Source: Brevundimonas sp. AJA228-03 (GTDB lineage: Bacteria; Pseudomonadota; Alphaproteobacteria; Caulobacterales; Caulobacteraceae). From it: a stretch of 64,000 nt of DNA. Of this stretch, positions 56,716 to 64,000 are shown piece after piece (the stretch's first letter is position 1; the number at the start of each line of letters is the position of its first letter). The notes below the pieces were generated by a model that was not told the DNA's origin, did no database searches, and saw only the letters and a list, made by a program, of their open reading frames with translations. Location of the stretch: contig NZ_CP059297.1 in NCBI RefSeq assembly GCF_017795885.1, forward strand, positions 1,245,001 to 1,309,000, written 5' to 3'. Position numbers and translations under genes: made by a program.

Positions 56716-57177
56716 ATGGCGAAACGGTCGGTCGGGGATATCGAGAAGATCTGGTCCAATGTCGAGGGCGTCAAGAAGCTGTCCGACCGTGTCGTCGGCC
56801 TCGGTCCCTTCGGCATCGGGATGGACGGCCTTCTGACCTGGGTTCCTTTCGTGGGGGACGCCTATACCGTCGGGGCAGGCGGCTGGCTGATGATCCAGGC
56901 CGTACGTGCCCGCGCATCGGCCGCGACCATGGCCCGGATGGCGGCCTATCTGCTCAGCGACACCGCGACGGCGGTGGTGCCGTTCGCGGGCGCGGTCGTG
57001 GATACGCTGTTTCCGGCACACCTGCTGGCGGCCAGGGCGCTGCAGAAGGATATCGAGACCACCCACTGGGTCGAGGCGAATGAGCGCGAGGCCAGGGCGT
57101 CGGGTGAACACGACCGCCATGTCGCGACGATGCGAGCCGATCCGAAGAAGCGGCGAATTGTCTATCTGCATGATTAG
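56716..57177 (+). CDS. DUF4112 domain-containing membrane protein
   Basis: The 153-residue protein, with GGGAGG before its ATG, shows the DUF4112 pattern: LSDRVVGLGPFGIGMDGLLT, WVPFVGDAYTVGAGGWLMIQ, and a second hydrophobic stretch LLSDTATAVVPFAGAVVDTL. The C-terminal part is charged. It is probably an inner-membrane protein of unknown role. Confidence 0.9.
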   Translation: MAKRSVGDIEKIWSNVEGVKKLSDRVVGLGPFGIGMDGLLTWVPFVGDAYTVGAGGWLMIQAVRARASAATMARMAAYLLSDTATAVVPFAGAVVDTLFPAHLLAARALQKDIETTHWVEANEREARASGEHDRHVATMRADPKKRRIVYLHD

Positions 57178-57249
57178 GCGGGACGCCGCGCTTGACGCCC
57201 CGGTCTCCAACGGCCCTATTCGCGTCGGCTGTGGCTTTCGGACGGTTCC

Positions 57250-57807
57250 ATGAATGCGATGCTCACGCGCGATGAACTGGCCCTTGCCCTCGGCCGGGCG
57301 GGCGAAGGGGATCGGCGCGCCTTCAAAATCGTCTATGAGGCGACCTCTGCGAAGCTGCTGGGTGTCTGCCTGCGTATCCTGGCGGACCGCCAGTTGGCCG
57401 AGGACGTCTTGCAGGACACCTACCTTGCCGTGTGGAAGAAGGCCTCGACCTTCGACGCGACGCGCGCCAGTCCGATCACCTGGCTGGTGACCATCGCCCG
57501 CAACCGCTCGATAGACCGGCTGCGCTCGGGCGCCCCGATGCGGCGGTCGATACCGGTCGAGGATGCGCACGACCTGGCCGATGCGGCACCGCTGGCTTCG
57601 GACGTGATCGAGACGACCGACGAGGTCGGACGGCTGAACACCTGCCTGGAGACATTGGAAGACAAGGTCCGCACAGCGATCCGCACCGCCTTTATGGAAG
57701 GCGTCACCTATGATGCCCTGGCCAGCAGGGAGAACGTGCCGCCGGGGACGATGAAGAGCTGGATTCGCCGGGGGCTGCTGAGGCTGAGGAGCTGCCTCGA
57801 GACATGA
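57250..57807 (+). CDS. ECF-type RNA polymerase sigma factor
   Basis: The 185-residue protein has sigma region 2 (ADRQLAEDVLQDTYLAVWKK near residue 40, then ITWLVTIARNRSIDRLR) and a region 4 helix-turn-helix (GVTYDALASRENVPPGTMKS, WIRRGLLRL). It resembles the SigK/EcfG-unrelated group that pairs with RskA-like anti-sigma factors. Its stop overlaps the anti-sigma start by four bases, so the two are made together. Confidence 0.93.
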   Translation: MNAMLTRDELALALGRAGEGDRRAFKIVYEATSAKLLGVCLRILADRQLAEDVLQDTYLAVWKKASTFDATRASPITWLVTIARNRSIDRLRSGAPMRRSIPVEDAHDLADAAPLASDVIETTDEVGRLNTCLETLEDKVRTAIRTAFMEGVTYDALASRENVPPGTMKSWIRRGLLRLRSCLET

Positions 57808-58529
57808 CCGACACACCCATCGATCCCGCCGACCAAGACCGCGCCCTGGCCGGCGAGCTCGTCCTGCGCGTTCTGTCCGCCGAAGAGGAACAGGCCGCAC
57901 GGGCGCGCGAGCGGTCCGACCCCGCCTTCGCCGCCGAGGTCGAGGCCTGGAACCAGCACCTGGCCACCTTCGCCGACGAGATCACGCCCGTGACGCCATC
58001 GTCGGGAGTCTGGCCGCGCGTGGAGGCGGCCATCCAGCCGGTCGCCAATGACAATGGCCGCGTCGCCTTCTGGCGGACCTGGGCCGTGGCCTCGACCGCC
58101 CTGCTGGCGGCGAGTGTCGCCGGCGTCGCCATCCTGCTGGCGCGACCCGAGCCCGCGCCGATCGCCCCGTCCGCGCCGGAAGGCGGCGTGACCCGGGTGG
58201 CGACCTTGTCCCTGACCGACGGCGGCGCGCCGGCGGTGGCGCTGGCCTATGACACGGCGACCGGAAAGCTGTTCATCGCCCCCACGACCGCGCTCAGCCG
58301 GGGGACGGGCGTACCGCATCTGTGGCTGGTCAAACCCGAGGGTGGCGTCCAGCTGGTCGGGGCCATCGACGGCTCGGCCACCAGCCGCCGGACCCTGACG
58401 GCGCTTCTGGCCGACGAGGCCGGGCAGGCCAGGGCCGTGGCGATTTCGCTGGAGGCACCGGGCCATACCCCTGGGGCCGATGCGCCCGACGGCCCGGTCG
58501 TGGCGACGGGCGAGTTGCAGCCGCTCTGA
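57804..58529 (+). CDS. anti-sigma factor, RskA-like, membrane-anchored
   Basis: The 241-residue product has a cytoplasmic N-terminal region (LVLRVLSAEEEQAARARERS, with AFAAEVEAWNQHLATFADEI), one membrane helix near residues 92-113 (WAVASTALLAASVAGVAILL), and a periplasmic domain with LWLVKPEGGVQLVG and ATGELQPL typical of RskA C-terminal domains. It should hold the adjacent ECF sigma factor inactive until an envelope signal is received. Confidence 0.88.
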   Translation: MTDTPIDPADQDRALAGELVLRVLSAEEEQAARARERSDPAFAAEVEAWNQHLATFADEITPVTPSSGVWPRVEAAIQPVANDNGRVAFWRTWAVASTALLAASVAGVAILLARPEPAPIAPSAPEGGVTRVATLSLTDGGAPAVALAYDTATGKLFIAPTTALSRGTGVPHLWLVKPEGGVQLVGAIDGSATSRRTLTALLADEAGQARAVAISLEAPGHTPGADAPDGPVVATGELQPL

Positions 58530-58760
58530 CGGCATCCACGCCGCTGGCGTATGTGTCGCTGACCGTGACCGGCCCGTTTCGGTGTCGCCTCGAGCCTGAC
58601 CGCCGCGATCCGGTTCGATGTCCGCGACGTCCGGGCCAATTGTCCGCGTTCGCTCTGAAAAGCCGCGCATTTTCAATCGGCGGTCGGTTTAATGCAGGCC
58701 TGAACGCGCCCGGTATCGGGGCTGAACGACACTGAACTCCGTCCTTCAACGGAGATTTCG

Positions 58761-60218
58761 ATGCCTTCCAGCCAGAGTGCCCGCCTGAACCTGCCCTATG
58801 TCGCGGCGGGCCAGCTTCAGAAACACGTCACCGTCAACGAGGCCCTGACCCGGCTCGACGGGCTGATCCAGACCGCCGTGATCAGCCGCACGGTCGCGGT
58901 CCAGCCCGCCGATGCGGAGGATGGCGACCTCTATATCCTCCCGAGCGCGCCAGCCGGTGCGGTCTGGTCGACGTGGCGTGCGGGTGATCTGGTCCGGGCC
59001 GAGTTCGGGGGGTGGACCCGCGTGCCGGTCCCGGTCGGGATGATCGCGGTCGTCCTGGATGAGGGCCAGCTGGTGGTCCGCGGCGGCGCGGGCTGGTCGG
59101 CTCCCACGCTGTCCGGCGGCGCGATCCAGCGCCTGACGCGCCTGGGGCTGAATACGACGGCCGACGCCGCCAATCCTCTGGCCGCGCGGATCAACAGCGC
59201 CCTGTTCACCGCGCGACCGGTGGCGGAGGGCGGCACAGGCGCGCTGCGACTGGTCCTGAACAAGGACGCGGCCCCGGACGTGATGTCGATCCTGTTCCAG
59301 CGCGGCTACTCCGGACGCGCCGAACTGGGCCTGGTCGGCGACGAAGACCTCAGCCTGAAGGTCAGTGCCGACGGATCGACCTGGCGCGAGGCGTTCCGTG
59401 TCGATCCCGATAACGGGCGGGTCGCCTTTCCGGCGGGCGCGATGCGGGTCGAGGCCAGCCTCCTCACCCGTTCATTCAGCTACACGCCGCCGGCCTGGGC
59501 GCGAATGCTGACGATCACGGCTGTCGGCGGCGGAGGCGGTGGAGGGACCGGAGCGTTCGCGACCTCGGGCGACCGGTTCGGCGGCGGGGGTGGCGGGGGC
59601 AGTGGTCTCAGCGTCCTTCGGTGCAGCACGGCGGATTTGCCCGGCAGTCTGGCGGTGACCATCGGCGCGGGTGGAGCAGGCGGTGCGGACGGTCAGGCGA
59701 CGACCGTCTCGGCTTCGAGCCTGGTCATCCTGACCGCGCGCGGTGGCGGAGCGGGCGTCCCGGGCGCAGCCGGCGGGGGCGGGGGACAGCGGGGTCCCGG
59801 ACTGATCGCGTCGAACGCCGGGGGCGCATCCTCGACCACCGGCGCGGCGCAGGCGGGCCAGGGCCTGTCCGGGCCCGGAGCCCCGGGCGGCGGCGGCGGT
59901 GGTGGTGCCCTCAATGCCGCCGGGACGGTCCGGGCATCGGGCGCGGGCGGAGACGGTGCGGCGCTTCTGAAGCCGTCGCCCGGTGGGGCCGCCGCGAGCG
60001 GTGCGGGTGCCTCGGGCAGCGCGGCGGCCACGCCGGCCCTCGCCCTTGGCGGTGGAGGGGGCGGGGGCGGCGCGGCCTCGGCCTCGGCAGCGGGATTCGC
60101 AGGCGGAAACGGCGGGACGTTCGGCAGCGGCGGTGGGGGCGGCGGCGCGGGGGCCACGGCCGGCGGCATGGGCGGATCGGGTGCGGCCGGGGTCGTGCTG
60201 ATCCTGGCCGAGGGGTGA
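58761..60218 (+). CDS. DUF2793 protein with glycine-rich C-terminus, tail-fibre-like
   Basis: The first 110 residues match DUF2793 (SARLNLPYVAAGQLQKHVTV, NEALTRLDGLIQTAVISR, DGDLYILPSAPAGAVWSTW), a family found in phage and GTA tail-fibre genes. After a central beta-rich part, residues 235-485 form a glycine- and alanine-rich region (GGGGGGTGAF, GGGGGGGSGLS and many GG runs) like the tip domain of phage tail fibres. It heads a tightly packed run of phage-type lysis genes. Confidence 0.88.
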   Translation: MPSSQSARLNLPYVAAGQLQKHVTVNEALTRLDGLIQTAVISRTVAVQPADAEDGDLYILPSAPAGAVWSTWRAGDLVRAEFGGWTRVPVPVGMIAVVLDEGQLVVRGGAGWSAPTLSGGAIQRLTRLGLNTTADAANPLAARINSALFTARPVAEGGTGALRLVLNKDAAPDVMSILFQRGYSGRAELGLVGDEDLSLKVSADGSTWREAFRVDPDNGRVAFPAGAMRVEASLLTRSFSYTPPAWARMLTITAVGGGGGGGTGAFATSGDRFGGGGGGGSGLSVLRCSTADLPGSLAVTIGAGGAGGADGQATTVSASSLVILTARGGGAGVPGAAGGGGGQRGPGLIASNAGGASSTTGAAQAGQGLSGPGAPGGGGGGGALNAAGTVRASGAGGDGAALLKPSPGGAAASGAGASGSAAATPALALGGGGGGGGAASASAAGFAGGNGGTFGSGGGGGGAGATAGGMGGSGAAGVVLILAEG

Positions 60219-60222
60219 GGAT

Positions 60223-60393
60223 ATGGGCCGCCCCCAAACCCCCGAGCCGGATGAACCGGATGAGCCGGACGTGCTCGACGCCGAGGCGTGGGATCTGCCG
60301 CGCCGCATGACCCGTCTTGAGGGCGCGCTGGCCGCCGGTCCGGACTGGCGCTGGACCCAACCCCATTTTGAAAAGGACGAACACGATGAGTGA
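60223..60393 (+). CDS. short acidic hypothetical protein
   Basis: A 56-residue ORF starts four bases after the DUF2793 stop, with GGGGTGAGG immediately upstream. It has a DEPDEPD-type acidic N-terminal repeat and the C-terminal stretch RRMTRLEGALAAGPDWRWTQ. It overlaps the next gene by eight bases. Length and position suggest a small phage-derived accessory protein; nothing more can be said. Confidence 0.65.
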   Translation: MGRPQTPEPDEPDEPDVLDAEAWDLPRRMTRLEGALAAGPDWRWTQPHFEKDEHDE

Positions 60394-60652
60394 ACCCGAA
60401 CGACCGCCCCTGGCCGAGGGCCAGTGGTTGTGGCGCCGGCTGTATGTCTTTCTGGCCAGTTGCGCGCTGTGGCGGCTGCTGGCGGACGCGGTCGCCCGGA
60501 CCGAACCCCGGGCCCTGCCCGCCGTGGCCAGCGGGCTGATGACCCTCCTGGCCCTGATGCTGGTCCTCTATCTGGTCGCTCCGACGGCTCAGCAGCTGGT
60601 GGTGCTGATGGCCAATCTGCGCATCCGTCTGACGCAGGGTGGCGCACGATGA
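60386..60652 (+). CDS. small two-helix membrane protein, candidate holin
   Basis: The 88-residue protein has two hydrophobic helices (LYVFLASCALWRLLADAV at about 19-36 and VASGLMTLLALMLVLYLVAP at about 48-67) and a basic C-terminus. That is the usual size and topology of class II holins. Its stop overlaps the endolysin start (ATGA). Assignment as holin rests on topology and position, not on sequence family. Confidence 0.7.
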   Translation: MSEPERPPLAEGQWLWRRLYVFLASCALWRLLADAVARTEPRALPAVASGLMTLLALMLVLYLVAPTAQQLVVLMANLRIRLTQGGAR

Positions 60653-61032
60653 GCTTTCGACTGTCGAGCCGGTCGCATGCGCGGCTGAAGGGGGTTCATC
60701 CGGCCCTGGTCGGTATCGTCGAGGCGGCGATCCGGACCAGCCCGATCGACTTCATGGTGACCGAGGGACTGCGCAGCCCGGCGCGGCAGGCGGCCCTGCT
60801 CAAGGCCGGGGCCAGCCGGACGCTGAACTCGCGCCACATCACCGGCCACGCGGTCGATCTGGCGGCGGTGGTCGAGGGCCAGATCCGCTGGGACTGGCCG
60901 CTGTATCCGCGCCTCGCGGCGCATATCAAGGCGACCGCCATGGCCAGGGGCGTAGCCATCGTTTGGGGCGGCGACTGGCCGCGCCTGCGCGACGGTCCGC
61001 ATTTCGAGTTGGATCGGAAGGTGTTTCCATGA
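60649..61032 (+). CDS. M15 family peptidase, phage-type endolysin
   Basis: The 127-residue protein has the zinc-binding pattern of L-Ala-D-Glu or D-Ala-D-Ala endopeptidases: His63 and Asp70 in SRHITGHAVDLA, and His118 in DGPHFELD. The upstream VTEGLRSPARQAALLKAGAS completes the fold. It should cut peptidoglycan cross-peptides. There is no signal peptide, so release through a holin is expected. It overlaps its neighbours on both sides by four bases. Confidence 0.88.
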   Translation: MSFRLSSRSHARLKGVHPALVGIVEAAIRTSPIDFMVTEGLRSPARQAALLKAGASRTLNSRHITGHAVDLAAVVEGQIRWDWPLYPRLAAHIKATAMARGVAIVWGGDWPRLRDGPHFELDRKVFP

Positions 61033-61484
61033 CCGCGAAGCTTCTGACCTCGGCGCTGAGAACGCTGACCCCGCTCGGGCTGATCGCCGGGATCGTGGCC
61101 ACCGTCGCGGCGCTCGGCCTGGTCCTGGGCGGGCTCGGCTTTCGCTGGGATCCGCTCGACCTGTCTCGTCGACGCGCCGAAGCGTCCGAGGCCGCCGCCG
61201 CGCGGGCCCGGGTCGACGCCGATGCGCGCTCCGCAGAGGCAGAGGGTCAGGCCGGTCAGGTCGCTCGCCTCGATGCCTCCCTTCGGACCGCGCGGTCGCT
61301 GGATCGCGCCACGACCCTAGCCATTCAGGATGCGAGAACCGCCGATGATGCCGACCATCCCCTTTCGAACGATCGCGCTGCTCGCCTGCGCGACCATGAT
61401 CACGAGCTGTGCCGGATCGCGCCCGACCTCGTCGGTTGCGCCGCCGCGCCTGACCCTGCCGCAGCTGGCGAGCCGACCGTGTGA
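61029..61484 (+). CDS. candidate Rz-like inner-membrane spanin
   Basis: The 151-residue product has a single N-terminal membrane helix (LIAGIVATVAALGLVLGGLG, residues 18-37) followed by an Ala/Glu/Arg-rich coiled coil at about 48-100 and a Cys near the C-terminus. This is the i-spanin layout. A lipoprotein gene begins inside it in another frame, as Rz1 does within Rz. Spanins are too divergent for sequence matching, so the call rests on topology and gene order. Confidence 0.7.
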   Translation: MTAKLLTSALRTLTPLGLIAGIVATVAALGLVLGGLGFRWDPLDLSRRRAEASEAAAARARVDADARSAEAEGQAGQVARLDASLRTARSLDRATTLAIQDARTADDADHPLSNDRAARLRDHDHELCRIAPDLVGCAAAPDPAAAGEPTV

Positions 61485-61689
61485 CCTTTACCGGCTGCCC
61501 GATGATCCCGGCGTGGCCGATCTCGACGTCGGCTATATGACGCGGGGCCGCCAGATCGTCGAATGCGATCTGGCCCGGCGAATGGCAGTCGAGACATTGC
61601 TGGCCGAGCGCGAGGCCATCGACAGGTCGCGCGCCAGGCCGAGGTCATCGTTCCGGGTTCGGGCCTTCGGGCGAGAGGGGTCGCCCTGA
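61345..61689 (+). CDS. candidate Rz1-like outer-membrane spanin lipoprotein, overlapping gene
   Basis: This frame starts inside the Rz-like gene and runs 205 bases beyond it. From ATG 61345 the 114-residue product has a lipoprotein signal (FRTIALLACATMITSC, Cys22), a Pro/Ser-rich start to the mature part (SRPTSSVAPPRLTLPQ) as in Rz1 proteins, and a charged helix. ATGs at 61330 and 61348 are alternatives. The signal peptide, lipobox and embedded position agree with an o-spanin. Confidence 0.7.
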   Translation: MMPTIPFRTIALLACATMITSCAGSRPTSSVAPPRLTLPQLASRPCDLYRLPDDPGVADLDVGYMTRGRQIVECDLARRMAVETLLAEREAIDRSRARPRSSFRVRAFGREGSP

Positions 61690-61862
61690 GGCACCCTGTC
61701 CTGCATCGGCGTGCAGCGGTCACCCGGCAAATCCTGCCTGGCACCCGGCATTTCCTGCCGCTGGAGGTCAATTGCGGCACATATTGCCGGGTCACGACCA
61801 TGGTTAAGGCAACCTAACGCAGGTTTTTCAGACACTTGGCCTTGATGCGATTTTCACATTCC

Positions 61863-61877
61863 TGGCCCGACGATTGC
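61863..61877 (+). promoter_or_regulatory. sigma-54 promoter of the flagellin gene
   Basis: TGGCCCGACGATTGC matches the sigma-54 consensus TGGCACGN4TTGC at all but one position, with GG and GC at the required 12-base spacing. It lies 73 bases before the flagellin ATG, leaving a leader of about 60 bases. Flagellin genes of Caulobacter are sigma-54 and FlbD dependent. Confidence 0.8.
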
Positions 61878-61950
61878 TTCTGAAAGCCTGAGCAAAATGC
61901 TCCCGACGGTCAAAACGACGGTCGGACACCTTGAAAAAAGGCTTTTCGTC

Positions 61951-62775
61951 ATGCCGATAAACAGCGTGAACACGAACTCGGGCGCCTACACCGCCCTCCA
62001 GAATCTGAACGCCACGAACCGCGACCTGGATATCTCCCAGAACCGGATCAACACTGGCAAGAAGGTCAACAACGCCAAAGACAACGGCGCCATCTGGGCT
62101 ATCGCCCAGCAGCAGCGCTCTGAAGTCACCGCCCTGAATACCGTAAGGGAAAGTCTGGCGCGGGGGTCTTCGGCCGTCGACGTCGGCCTCGCTGCCGGCG
62201 AGTCGATCTCTGACCTCCTGGTCCAGATGAAGGACAAGGCCCTGGCTGCGACCGACAGTTCGCTGAACACGGCTTCGCGTGCCGCCCTGAACGAGGATTA
62301 CAAGGCACTCCGCGATCAGATCACCACCGTGGTCACCAACGCGTCGTTCAACGGCCTGAACATGCTGAACGCCACGACCGGCTTCAGCGCCCTGTCCAAC
62401 TCGACGGGCACCGCCCTGCGCGTCAAGGGTGAAATCCTGTCGCTGAACGGTGGCAATGTGACCGTGACCGCGACCTCCAGTATCGGCACCCGGACCCTGG
62501 CCACCGCGCAACTGACCGCGGTTAACACCTCGATCAACAATGTCTCCTCTGCCCTGGCGCGCCTGGGCACGGGCGCCAAAGCGTACGACACCCACTCGAC
62601 GTTCATCACCAAGCTGTCTGACGCCCTGGAGAACGGCGTTGGCAACCTGGTCGATGCGGATCTGGCGAAGGAAAGCGCACGACTGCAGTCGCTGCAAACC
62701 AAGCAACAGCTGGGTGTGCAGGCTCTGTCGATCGCTAACCAATCGTCCGGGACCCTGCTCGGCCTGTTCAGATAA
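61951..62775 (+). CDS. flagellin
   Basis: The ATG at 61951 (MPINSVNTNSGAYTALQNLN), after AAAAAAGG, is the family start; the 18 upstream residues are leader sequence. The 274-residue product has the N-terminal D0/D1 helix (NRDLDISQNRINTGKKVNNA, AKDNGAIWAIAQQQRSEV) and the C-terminal partner helix (NLVDADLAKESARLQSLQTK, LGVQALSIANQSSGTLLGLF) with a short variable middle, as in Caulobacter flagellins. It is exported by the flagellar secretion system to form the filament. Confidence 0.96.
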   Translation: MPINSVNTNSGAYTALQNLNATNRDLDISQNRINTGKKVNNAKDNGAIWAIAQQQRSEVTALNTVRESLARGSSAVDVGLAAGESISDLLVQMKDKALAATDSSLNTASRAALNEDYKALRDQITTVVTNASFNGLNMLNATTGFSALSNSTGTALRVKGEILSLNGGNVTVTATSSIGTRTLATAQLTAVNTSINNVSSALARLGTGAKAYDTHSTFITKLSDALENGVGNLVDADLAKESARLQSLQTKQQLGVQALSIANQSSGTLLGLFR

Positions 62776-62790
62776 CAAACCGGCGGAAGG

Positions 62791-62825
62791 GCGGGGCATT
62801 GTGCCCCGTCCGACCGCTCTTTCAG
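62791..62825 (+). terminator. hairpin after flagellin gene
   Basis: CGGGGCA and TGCCCCG form a perfect 7-bp stem around a three-base loop. A T-containing stretch (CTCTTTC) follows a few bases later. It may end or attenuate the flagellin transcript before the FlaG-like gene. Confidence 0.55.
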
Positions 62826-62855
62826 GAGCCGCCGGCCTTACCGGCGTGAGGAGCC

Positions 62856-63140
62856 ATGGAAACGAATGCGAAGCTGACCGTCGTCCCCACCGTCGTCGCC
62901 GCCCCGTCGTCAACGACGCCAGGCGGAGACTTCCAACAGGAACGCGCCGCGGATGATGCCATAAGGACTGCGCGGTACCGCCTGATCATCGAGGAAGGCT
63001 CCACCAAGGGGAGCTTTGTCTACAAGACCATGGACAGCGAGACCGGAAAGGTCGTGCGCCAGTTCCCTCGGGAACAGGTGATGAAGATGTCCGAAAGCGG
63101 CGGCTATACGGCCGGTGGGCTGATCGACACCAGCGCCTGA
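62856..63140 (+). CDS. flaG: FlaG-like flagellar protein
   Basis: The 94-residue protein has a variable N-terminal half and the C-terminal FlaG pattern YKTMDSETGKVVRQFPREQV followed by MKMSE. FlaG proteins influence flagellar filament length. It lies between two flagellin genes, 80 bases after the first, which supports the call. The second half matches better than the first. Confidence 0.8.
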   Translation: METNAKLTVVPTVVAAPSSTTPGGDFQQERAADDAIRTARYRLIIEEGSTKGSFVYKTMDSETGKVVRQFPREQVMKMSESGGYTAGGLIDTSA

Positions 63141-63278
63141 TTTTCGGGCGTCAGAAAAAGACAATCCAACCGCGCGGGCCCGCCCGACGCGGGCGATATC
63201 CGTTGCGAAACGCCGTTAACCATACGCTCACAGTTCTCGCATTAGCCTTGCGGCCAACATCCCGGGGCAAGAAGACCT

Positions 63279-64000
63279 ATGAGCAACAGCGTTCACACCA
63301 ATGCCGCAGCCGCCACCGCGCTGCAGAACCTGTCTCGCACCAACGACAACCTGACCAGCGTGCAGAACCGCGTGTCCACGGGGTTGAGAGTCCAGGGTGC
63401 CAAGGACAACTCCGCCATCTGGGCCATTGCCCAGAGCCAGCGCGCCGATATCGGGGCGCTTGCGGCCGTGAAGCAGAGCCTGGATCGCGCCACCTCGATC
63501 GCCGATGTCGCCCTCTCGGCCGGCGAGTCGATCTCGGACCTTCTGAACCAGATGAAGGAAAAGGTCGTCGCGGCCAAGGACGTTTCGCTCAGCACCCAGT
63601 CTCGGTCCTTGCTGAACTCGGACTTCAAGGCCCTGCTGCGCGCGATCAGCTCGGCCGTCGAAAACGCTTCCTTCGATGGCGGCAACATCCTGAATGGCGT
63701 GCTGACCAACGGAATCAAATTCCTGGCCAATGCCGACGCGACGTCCTTCGTCACGCTGTCAGGCAAGAACCTGACGCTGTCGGGGTCGATCATCTCGCTG
63801 GGGCTGGCCGACAGCCTGCTGACGCTCACGGGCGCGACCACGGCCCTCACCAAGCTGGACAACTCCATCAACACGCTGAACTCGGCGATGGGCGACCTCG
63901 GGTCCCAGGCCAAGCAGATCACGGCGCACAGCACCTTCGTGACCAAGCTCAGCGATACGGTGGAGAGCGGAATCGGCAATCTGGTGGACGCCGATCTGGC
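63279..64000 (+). CDS. second flagellin, truncated by window end
   Basis: From ATG 63279 (MSNSVHTNAAAATALQNLSR) the frame stays open to the end of the window. It shows the same D0/D1 features as the first flagellin: GLRVQGAKDNSAIWAIAQSQ near residue 35, ADVALSAGESISDLLNQMKE near 75, and VESGIGNLVDADLA at the cut. About 240 residues are present and some 35 are missing. The middle region differs from the first flagellin, so this is a distinct paralogue. Confidence 0.95.
   Translation, partial: MSNSVHTNAAAATALQNLSRTNDNLTSVQNRVSTGLRVQGAKDNSAIWAIAQSQRADIGALAAVKQSLDRATSIADVALSAGESISDLLNQMKEKVVAAKDVSLSTQSRSLLNSDFKALLRAISSAVENASFDGGNILNGVLTNGIKFLANADATSFVTLSGKNLTLSGSIISLGLADSLLTLTGATTALTKLDNSINTLNSAMGDLGSQAKQITAHSTFVTKLSDTVESGIGNLVDADL

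Follow-up and report, generated by a model that had tools for sequence, protein, structure and literature searches.

A tail-fibre and lysis operon of Brevundimonas with a promoter matching that of the gene transfer agent cluster: a probable dispersed locus of the agent

Introduction

In Rhodobacter capsulatus, the tail fibre gene rcc00171 of the gene transfer agent (GTA), RcGTA, and its lysis gene rcc00555, whose product is of another enzyme class than the M15 endopeptidases, are found at separate loci. Here we describe a six-gene operon of Brevundimonas sp. AJA228-03 (58761-61689, forward strand) in which a DUF2793 tail-fibre gene and a phage-type lysis cassette stand together. It lies within a stretch of 64,000 nucleotides, hereafter the window (G000:C1:1245001-1309000, contig NZ_CP059297.1), whose first letter is position 1 of the coordinates given for the operon; the host genome, G000, is a single contig of 3,038,188 bases. 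Given that its promoter matches that of the GTA head-tail cluster of the same genome, we consider it likely that this operon belongs to the Brevundimonas GTA as a dispersed locus, one that finishes and releases its particles.

RcGTA is described as having its genes, at least 24 in number, spread over five loci (PMC11409702), and it resembles the system considered here in its head-tail cluster, in a DUF2793 fibre encoded outside that cluster and, if the Brevundimonas genes act as predicted, in a phage-type holin-endolysin release, as presented in PMC13236601. Brevundimonas differs from it in having the fibre and lysis genes in one operon, along with both putative spanins and an M15 endopeptidase. 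The GTA of Caulobacter crescentus (CcGTA) comes from the same bacterial family as Brevundimonas and, in the account of PMC9632790, also has GafYZ-type regulators and a distant tail-fibre gene, ccna_02456. The original prediction, which took this DNA for a dispersed GTA locus, had invoked Caulobacter as a parallel, and on this point the comparison cuts the opposite way: C. crescentus reportedly has no holin or endolysin homologue and lyses via the CARD-NLR-like LypABC (PMC9632790, PMC13236601), so that Brevundimonas would hold a different release solution. The diverging solutions of the R. capsulatus and C. crescentus GTAs were called intriguing in a 2026 paper (PMC13236601); should our reading be true, Brevundimonas would provide a close comparison within the Caulobacter family for testing this divergence by gene deletion.

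A third system of comparable build is chiWXYZ of Serratia marcescens (type 10 secretion), likewise an operon, of four genes, with holin-like and endopeptidase genes, and with an endopeptidase homologous to the one found here. It differs in that, as described in PMC5778951, a tail fibre and a GTA promoter are not known there and the cargo consists of secreted enzymes. The DUF2793 GTA fibre, the holin-endolysin lysis of RcGTA and LypABC were already known; what appears to be new is the Brevundimonas fibre-lysis operon under a GTA-type promoter, of which we found no published report in the open-licence PMC literature.

GTA cluster and shared promoter

In the G000 genome the portal family PF04860 is matched once, at 2.637 Mb, inside an RcGTA-type cluster located 1.33 Mb from the operon. 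This cluster comprises Terminase_6N, portal, S78 protease, capsid, tail tube, an Rcc01695-family distal tail protein, baseplate hub (Rcc01698_C), NlpC/P60 and GTA_TIM, the last of which matches PF13547 at E 3e-131. About 15 kb beyond it, at G000:C1:2654618-2655732, there is a candidate gafYZ pair: the GafY candidate (123 aa) carries a DnaA C-terminal domain (DnaA_C) and the GafZ candidate (248 aa, DUF6456) overlaps it. GafY homologues were found in 60 of 61 genomes of the genus, the one genome lacking it being 66% complete.

Side-by-side reading of the two upstream regions of G000, that of the fibre operon and that of the GTA cluster, revealed the same element in both. The pattern TTGTCCGCGNNNGCNNNGAAAA was written from four promoters of three genomes (G000, G139 and G238) and searched in these genomes at up to 3 mismatches. 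Exact matches number two per genome in all three, and they are located only at the fibre operon (58640-58661 on the forward strand of the window, upstream of the first gene) and at the GTA cluster; no one-mismatch matches are listed in any of the three genomes. Two of the six exact sites (the GTA cluster of G139 and the fibre operon of G238) are independent of the writing of the pattern, and all six align beyond it. At up to 3 mismatches G000 returns 48 matches versus 28 for the reversed control, and for this reason weight is placed on the exact matches only.

A wider comparison used 19 genomes out of the 30 that have a fibre locus, with sequence windows ending at the gp1 start. The 11 genomes left aside were those whose GTA upstream stretch was not fetched, whose large terminase subunit (TerL) was not far enough inside or whose gp1 start was unrecognised, and the GTA window of G139 was taken from the locus found by motif search. 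Similarity between fibre and GTA promoters averages 19.3 within a genome versus 11.4 between genomes, and none of 20,000 permutations was as high. In 17 of these 19 genomes the best alignments share a single offset, -26 to -14 bp. The two promoters thus vary in concert across clades, as would be the case were a single regulator to act on both, and at the level of sequence the shared element and register support a possible co-regulation of the operon with the head-tail cluster. Such a promoter, varying in step at the two places, would also offer a sequence handle for GTA regulons in genomes without chromatin immunoprecipitation.

An IHF-like site (up to 2 mismatches) was detected in 43 of the 76 fibre promoters, as against 26% in shuffles, and sits at -88/-89 in 19 of those 43. 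Among the 19 GTA promoters 12 have one (30% in shuffles), in 11 cases at -69. The 76 fibre promoters and their leaders come from 30 + 46 loci with genomes partly repeated, and they reduce to 61 distinct promoter windows and 58 distinct leaders. Taken with the element, the IHF-like site recalls the GafY-IHF arrangement mapped in C. crescentus (PMC11150451). Four of 30 genomes (L278-L281) carry TTGTTCGCG, a near relative of the element, ~200-230 bp upstream of gafY; these are related to G000, which itself does not have it, and the position would fit autoregulation.

In the scenario that we favour, the GTA regulators, most likely GafY with IHF, would switch on the head-tail cluster and the matching operon promoter together. 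The operon would then supply the tail fibre that completes the GTA particle, and the holin, the M15 endopeptidase and the two spanins would open the inner membrane, the wall and the outer membrane, respectively, releasing the particles by suicide lysis. The sequences themselves show the gene content, its conservation and constraint, the GTA cluster, the gafYZ-like pair and the shared promoter; the binding of GafY and IHF, the protein activities as named and lysis as the release step are what we infer.

Conservation and constraint

An endolysin homologue is present in 38 of 40 genomes of the genus, as opposed to 8 of 159 other family genomes sampled; in two of the 38, G083 and G174, it is divergent and differently placed. 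A holin homologue adjoins it in 75 of the 80 named loci with the endolysin, which are mostly from Brevundimonas, and the five loci without one correspond to one P2-type prophage and four second copies. DUF2793 is found upstream in 46 of the 47 named loci having at least 2.6 kb of upstream sequence (the single miss is L070). Downstream, a flagellin gene on either strand is present in all 65 named loci with at least 3.5 kb on that side, its best match being within 1.3 kb in 46, and 56 of the same 65 have a detectable Rz or Rz1.

Median pairwise dN/dS, taken over 12-15 non-independent pairs, is 0.15 for the endolysin, 0.17 for the holin, 0.23 for the N-terminal part of the fibre and 0.32 for Rz, which overlaps Rz1. 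Distances between endolysins correlate with those between GTA portals (r 0.72, 28 genomes), as vertical descent of both would give, and in a tree the cassette endolysins come together as a group of 36 (support 0.87) that has four sequences from viral contigs within it.

These data bear on whether the operon could be an old prophage remnant, kept by chance or decaying. Homologues of the lysis genes do exist in viral contigs and in the P2-type prophage of the genus, and the nine of 65 loci where neither spanin was detected might be taken as decay. Such a history is contradicted by conservation and constraint: a stray prophage piece is not what one sees in nearly every genome of the genus, between a DUF2793 gene and flagellin genes, with dN/dS medians of this order and with a promoter in common with the GTA cluster. 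We regard it as highly improbable. The checks laid out along with the original prediction point the other way, since a genome-wide search for a GTA head-tail cluster succeeded, the locus is far from being confined to a single strain, and the synteny and dN/dS comparison gave a conserved position and low ratios; with the promoter added, the idea of a dispersed GTA locus gains support.

Genes of the operon

The six genes are tightly packed, with the layout of a translationally coupled operon, and when gene coordinates and order were checked they proved to be as first predicted. Between the fibre stop codon (60216-60218) and the next start (60223) there is a 4 bp gap; after the acidic open reading frame (ORF) there are only overlaps, of 8 bp at 60386, ATGA at 60649 and ATGA at 61029, and then Rz1 is nested inside Rz. 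All six are on the forward strand. PADLOC returned no match for the six proteins and NCBIfam none for five of them.

The first gene (58761-60218) encodes a DUF2793 tail-fibre protein of 485 aa with a glycine-rich C-terminal domain (Pfam PF10983, E 8e-22). According to PMC8265664 its N-terminal domain is the same as that of the RcGTA tail fibre rcc00171, and DUF2793 as a GTA fibre that co-evolves with GTA genes is already part of the published record (PMC10883770, PMC8265664). In agreement with this, among the 159 genomes outside the genus 53 have both DUF2793 and the GTA portal, 1 has the portal only, 12 have DUF2793 only and 93 have neither (typed by hand at portal E < 1e-100 and DUF2793 E <= 1e-15, with 10 weaker portal and 3 weaker DUF2793 matches dropped). 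The N-terminal part of the protein has one significant match among solved structures, 8gtc chain S (E 4e-8), whose depositor label, Ribonuclease III, is not reconcilable with a tail fibre. The second gene (60223-60393) is an ORF for a short acidic protein of 56 aa with homologues at the same position in some relatives.

The fourth gene (60649-61032) encodes an M15 endolysin of 127 aa, predicted to be an L-Ala-D-Glu endopeptidase (PF13539, E 4e-11; PHROG endolysin, E 3e-53). Fibre, acidic protein and endolysin are all confirmed as they had been proposed. Its nearest solved relative is ChiX (5opz, E 1.5e-37), for which PMC5778951 gives L-Ala-D-Glu endopeptidase activity and the zinc ligands His68, Asp75 and His123; counted on the alignment, H63, D70 and H118 of the Brevundimonas protein fall on these ligands. 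The zinc-motif pattern is present in 36 of 36 endolysins read from 37 loci, the 37th locus being that of G189, which is without the gene.

An endolysin of the ChiX kind makes type 10 secretion a serious rival: holin, endopeptidase and spanins would then serve to export proteins, one candidate being the glycine-rich product of the DUF2793 gene, and would have no dedicated tie with the GTA, much as chiWXYZ is needed for chitinase secretion (PMC5778951). However, ChiX-like enzymes are also ordinary phage endolysins, relatives of this one being found in 1253 of 50,697 phage records, and the likeness therefore does not discriminate between the two roles. Besides, the first gene belongs to the GTA tail-fibre family, which tracks the GTA portal, and the operon promoter matches that of the GTA cluster, which leads us to consider an export system unlikely. 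No cargo gene is identified beside the endopeptidase.

For the holin and the spanins, family libraries score nil or weak and the calls rest on sequence shape, position and synteny. The putative holin (60386-60652, 88 aa) has two hydrophobic stretches, as judged by eye, and shows 32-47% identity to the proteins that occupy its position in six viral contigs, one of which, L119, carries P2-family head and tail genes; neither Pfam nor PHROG matches it at E values up to 1, and it has no match among the phage records. The Rz-like inner-membrane spanin (61029-61484, 151 aa) is recognised by an N-terminal hydrophobic stretch, its position and syntenic homologues in relatives, with no family match better than E 0.15. 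The Rz1-like outer-membrane lipoprotein spanin (61348-61689) is nested in it in another frame, with a first ATG at 61330 and a later one at 61348, a lipobox-like ITSC, homologues in relatives and a PHROG Rz-like spanin match at E 0.059. Overlap, lipobox-like motif and syntenic homologues would fit an Rz with a nested lipoprotein Rz1, although the family scores are weak and nine of 65 named loci show neither protein. The holin-like protein and the Rz/Rz1-like pair of the original prediction thus stand on their shape, position and relatives, and find no comparable backing in the family searches.

Retention in genomes with a damaged GTA cluster

A number of observations argue against a tie between the operon and the GTA. 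On the promoter side, the common register of fibre and GTA promoters is also seen in 145 of 342 between-genome pairs. When each fibre promoter was compared with the region preceding the portal (~4-5 kb, or 19.5 kb in G162), the GTA promoter gave the best same-strand match for 8 of 21 genomes, and a first paired promoter test, with badly cut windows, returned 4 of 19 pairs at p<0.05. The element of Brevundimonas also differs from ACTATG, the site that has been mapped in C. crescentus, with no match between the two, and TTGTCCGCG was not found within one mismatch upstream of gafY in G000. The nine loci lacking a detectable Rz or Rz1 belong to the same side of the balance.

As for gene content, G092 has a GTA cluster and no such endolysin. 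In G083 and G174 divergent genes for a holin-like protein and an endolysin stand at a related site with no fibre next to them, and the shared promoter was not seen there by eye. Clear GTA damage was found in nine genomes (G073, G107, G143, G151, G155, G159, G162, G183 and G189), consisting in G073 and G151 of frameshifts or stops that could be sequencing errors, and eight of the nine keep a full-length endolysin with the zinc motif; G189 alone lost it. A joint-decay test, leaving out two ambiguous genomes, showed no association (complete cassette in 9 of 22 GTA-intact versus 8 of 13 GTA-broken genomes, Fisher p 0.31). This test is unreliable both ways, as the Rz1 detector missed known genes and TerL absence from the cluster, which had counted among the criteria for a broken GTA, need not mean a dead one, and we therefore quote the strict nine-genome list and the endolysin alone.

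Retention of the endolysin in eight of the nine damaged genomes leaves two options: either the GTAs were lost recently, or the cassette is useful in its own right. The second option would suit the type 10 system discussed above, and would equally suit a lysis module of the GafY regulon with a role beyond particle release, namely programmed lysis for DNA or nutrient sharing, kept despite a damaged head-tail cluster. GafY homologues are indeed found almost throughout the genus, including at least the damaged G073 and G162. Still, the first gene of the operon is that of a tail fibre, for which no use is apparent in the absence of particles, and G151, G155, G159 and G183 are close relatives, so that the GTA losses may be recent; a wider lysis role thus seems to us quite improbable. 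Completion and release of GTA particles is the function that we prefer for the operon.

Some of the genomes involved deserve a closer description. In G189 (L258:6669-9213) the endolysin loss is clean, with the fibre, acidic protein, holin and Rz genes kept, and the GTA cluster is decaying. Internal deletions are seen in two GTA clusters (L362, L420): G162 is without the stretch from portal to capsid and nearby genes and G159 is without terminase and portal, the tail genes being still open.

GTA clusters also vary in other ways. Within the L337/L360 set, G139 has ~3 kb of extra genes between terminase and portal, and directly upstream of the portal in G131 there are genes resembling, by reading, those of a hydrolase and an acyltransferase. 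Four genomes whose GTA cluster is without a terminase have a stand-alone terminase large-subunit gene (L413:6021-7959, L414:6629-8305, L415:6017-7774 and L417:5886-7660), 53-59% identical to the GTA terminase and in surroundings that look housekeeping; in two of the four it adjoins a small gene reading like a DNA-binding protein. These genes may be relocated GTA terminases or an independent orphan family. Both a GTA-cluster and a stand-alone terminase are present in G139 and G186.

Origin of the lysis module

Nine fibre loci, each from a different genome outside the genus, were searched at E 0.01 for homologues of the holin, the endolysin and Rz, and none turned up, two of these contigs stopping at the fibre gene; there was one stray Rz1 match, in L268. 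By reading, the gene beside the fibre in G124 looks like a different peptidase. The P2-type Brevundimonas prophage (L065, L119) is like the operon in having holin-like, M15 endolysin, Rz and Rz1 homologues in the same order, and differs from it in that the lysis module is amid P2-family head and tail genes, with no DUF2793 match there. From these comparisons the simplest history is probably that a phage-type lysis module was placed behind an old GTA fibre gene in the Brevundimonas line. A bolder version, tentative and in our view rather doubtful, would be that the GTA release machinery of Brevundimonas was swapped in this way, a phage-type cassette coming to lie behind the fibre under the GTA promoter, and that it has since become a cell lysis programme outliving the particle genes in several lineages, with Caulobacter using the immune-type LypABC trigger instead.

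A second M15 endolysin, 60-63% identical and without a holin homologue, is present in four Brevundimonas genomes (L101, L107, L109 and L113); that of L107 is in a stretch reading like a prophage.

Leader hairpin and flanking genes

A hairpin in the leader (CTCCG..CGGAG, 58737-58754, forward strand) is predicted from pairing probabilities to hide the Shine-Dalgarno (SD) sequence of the tail-fibre gene. The unpaired probability at the SD has a median of 0.001 in the 76 leaders (58 distinct) versus 0.472 in 364 control genes, and 69 of the 76 Brevundimonas leaders are below 0.2. Compensatory changes were not found among 22 aligned leaders, which give no covariation support. Of 8 loci tested in other genera, 3 (L264, L266 and L272) likewise have a buried SD (< 0.1 unpaired), with unrelated sequence. 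Translational gating of the fibre by this hairpin is possible.

Phage head, portal, terminase and integrase genes, said at the outset to be missing from the vicinity, were not recognised between 40.7 kb in the window and a point 11 kb outside its right-hand edge, where gene calls were read by eye and some proteins scanned. By reading, the flanking calls over this span are housekeeping and flagellin-like, and the proteins scanned include RecN-like, poly(A) polymerase-like, DUF4112, flagellin and SSB proteins. Rfam gave no match within 57000-64000. The extracytoplasmic function (ECF) sigma pair and the flagellins that had been noted as flanking the operon are both real, and the flagellins recur throughout the loci as given above. 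The ECF/RskA pair was rejected as part of the operon, being near the cassette in 17 of the 47 named loci with enough upstream sequence. Flagellin genes together with a FlaG gene lie 3' of the cassette, at 61897-64109 in window coordinates.

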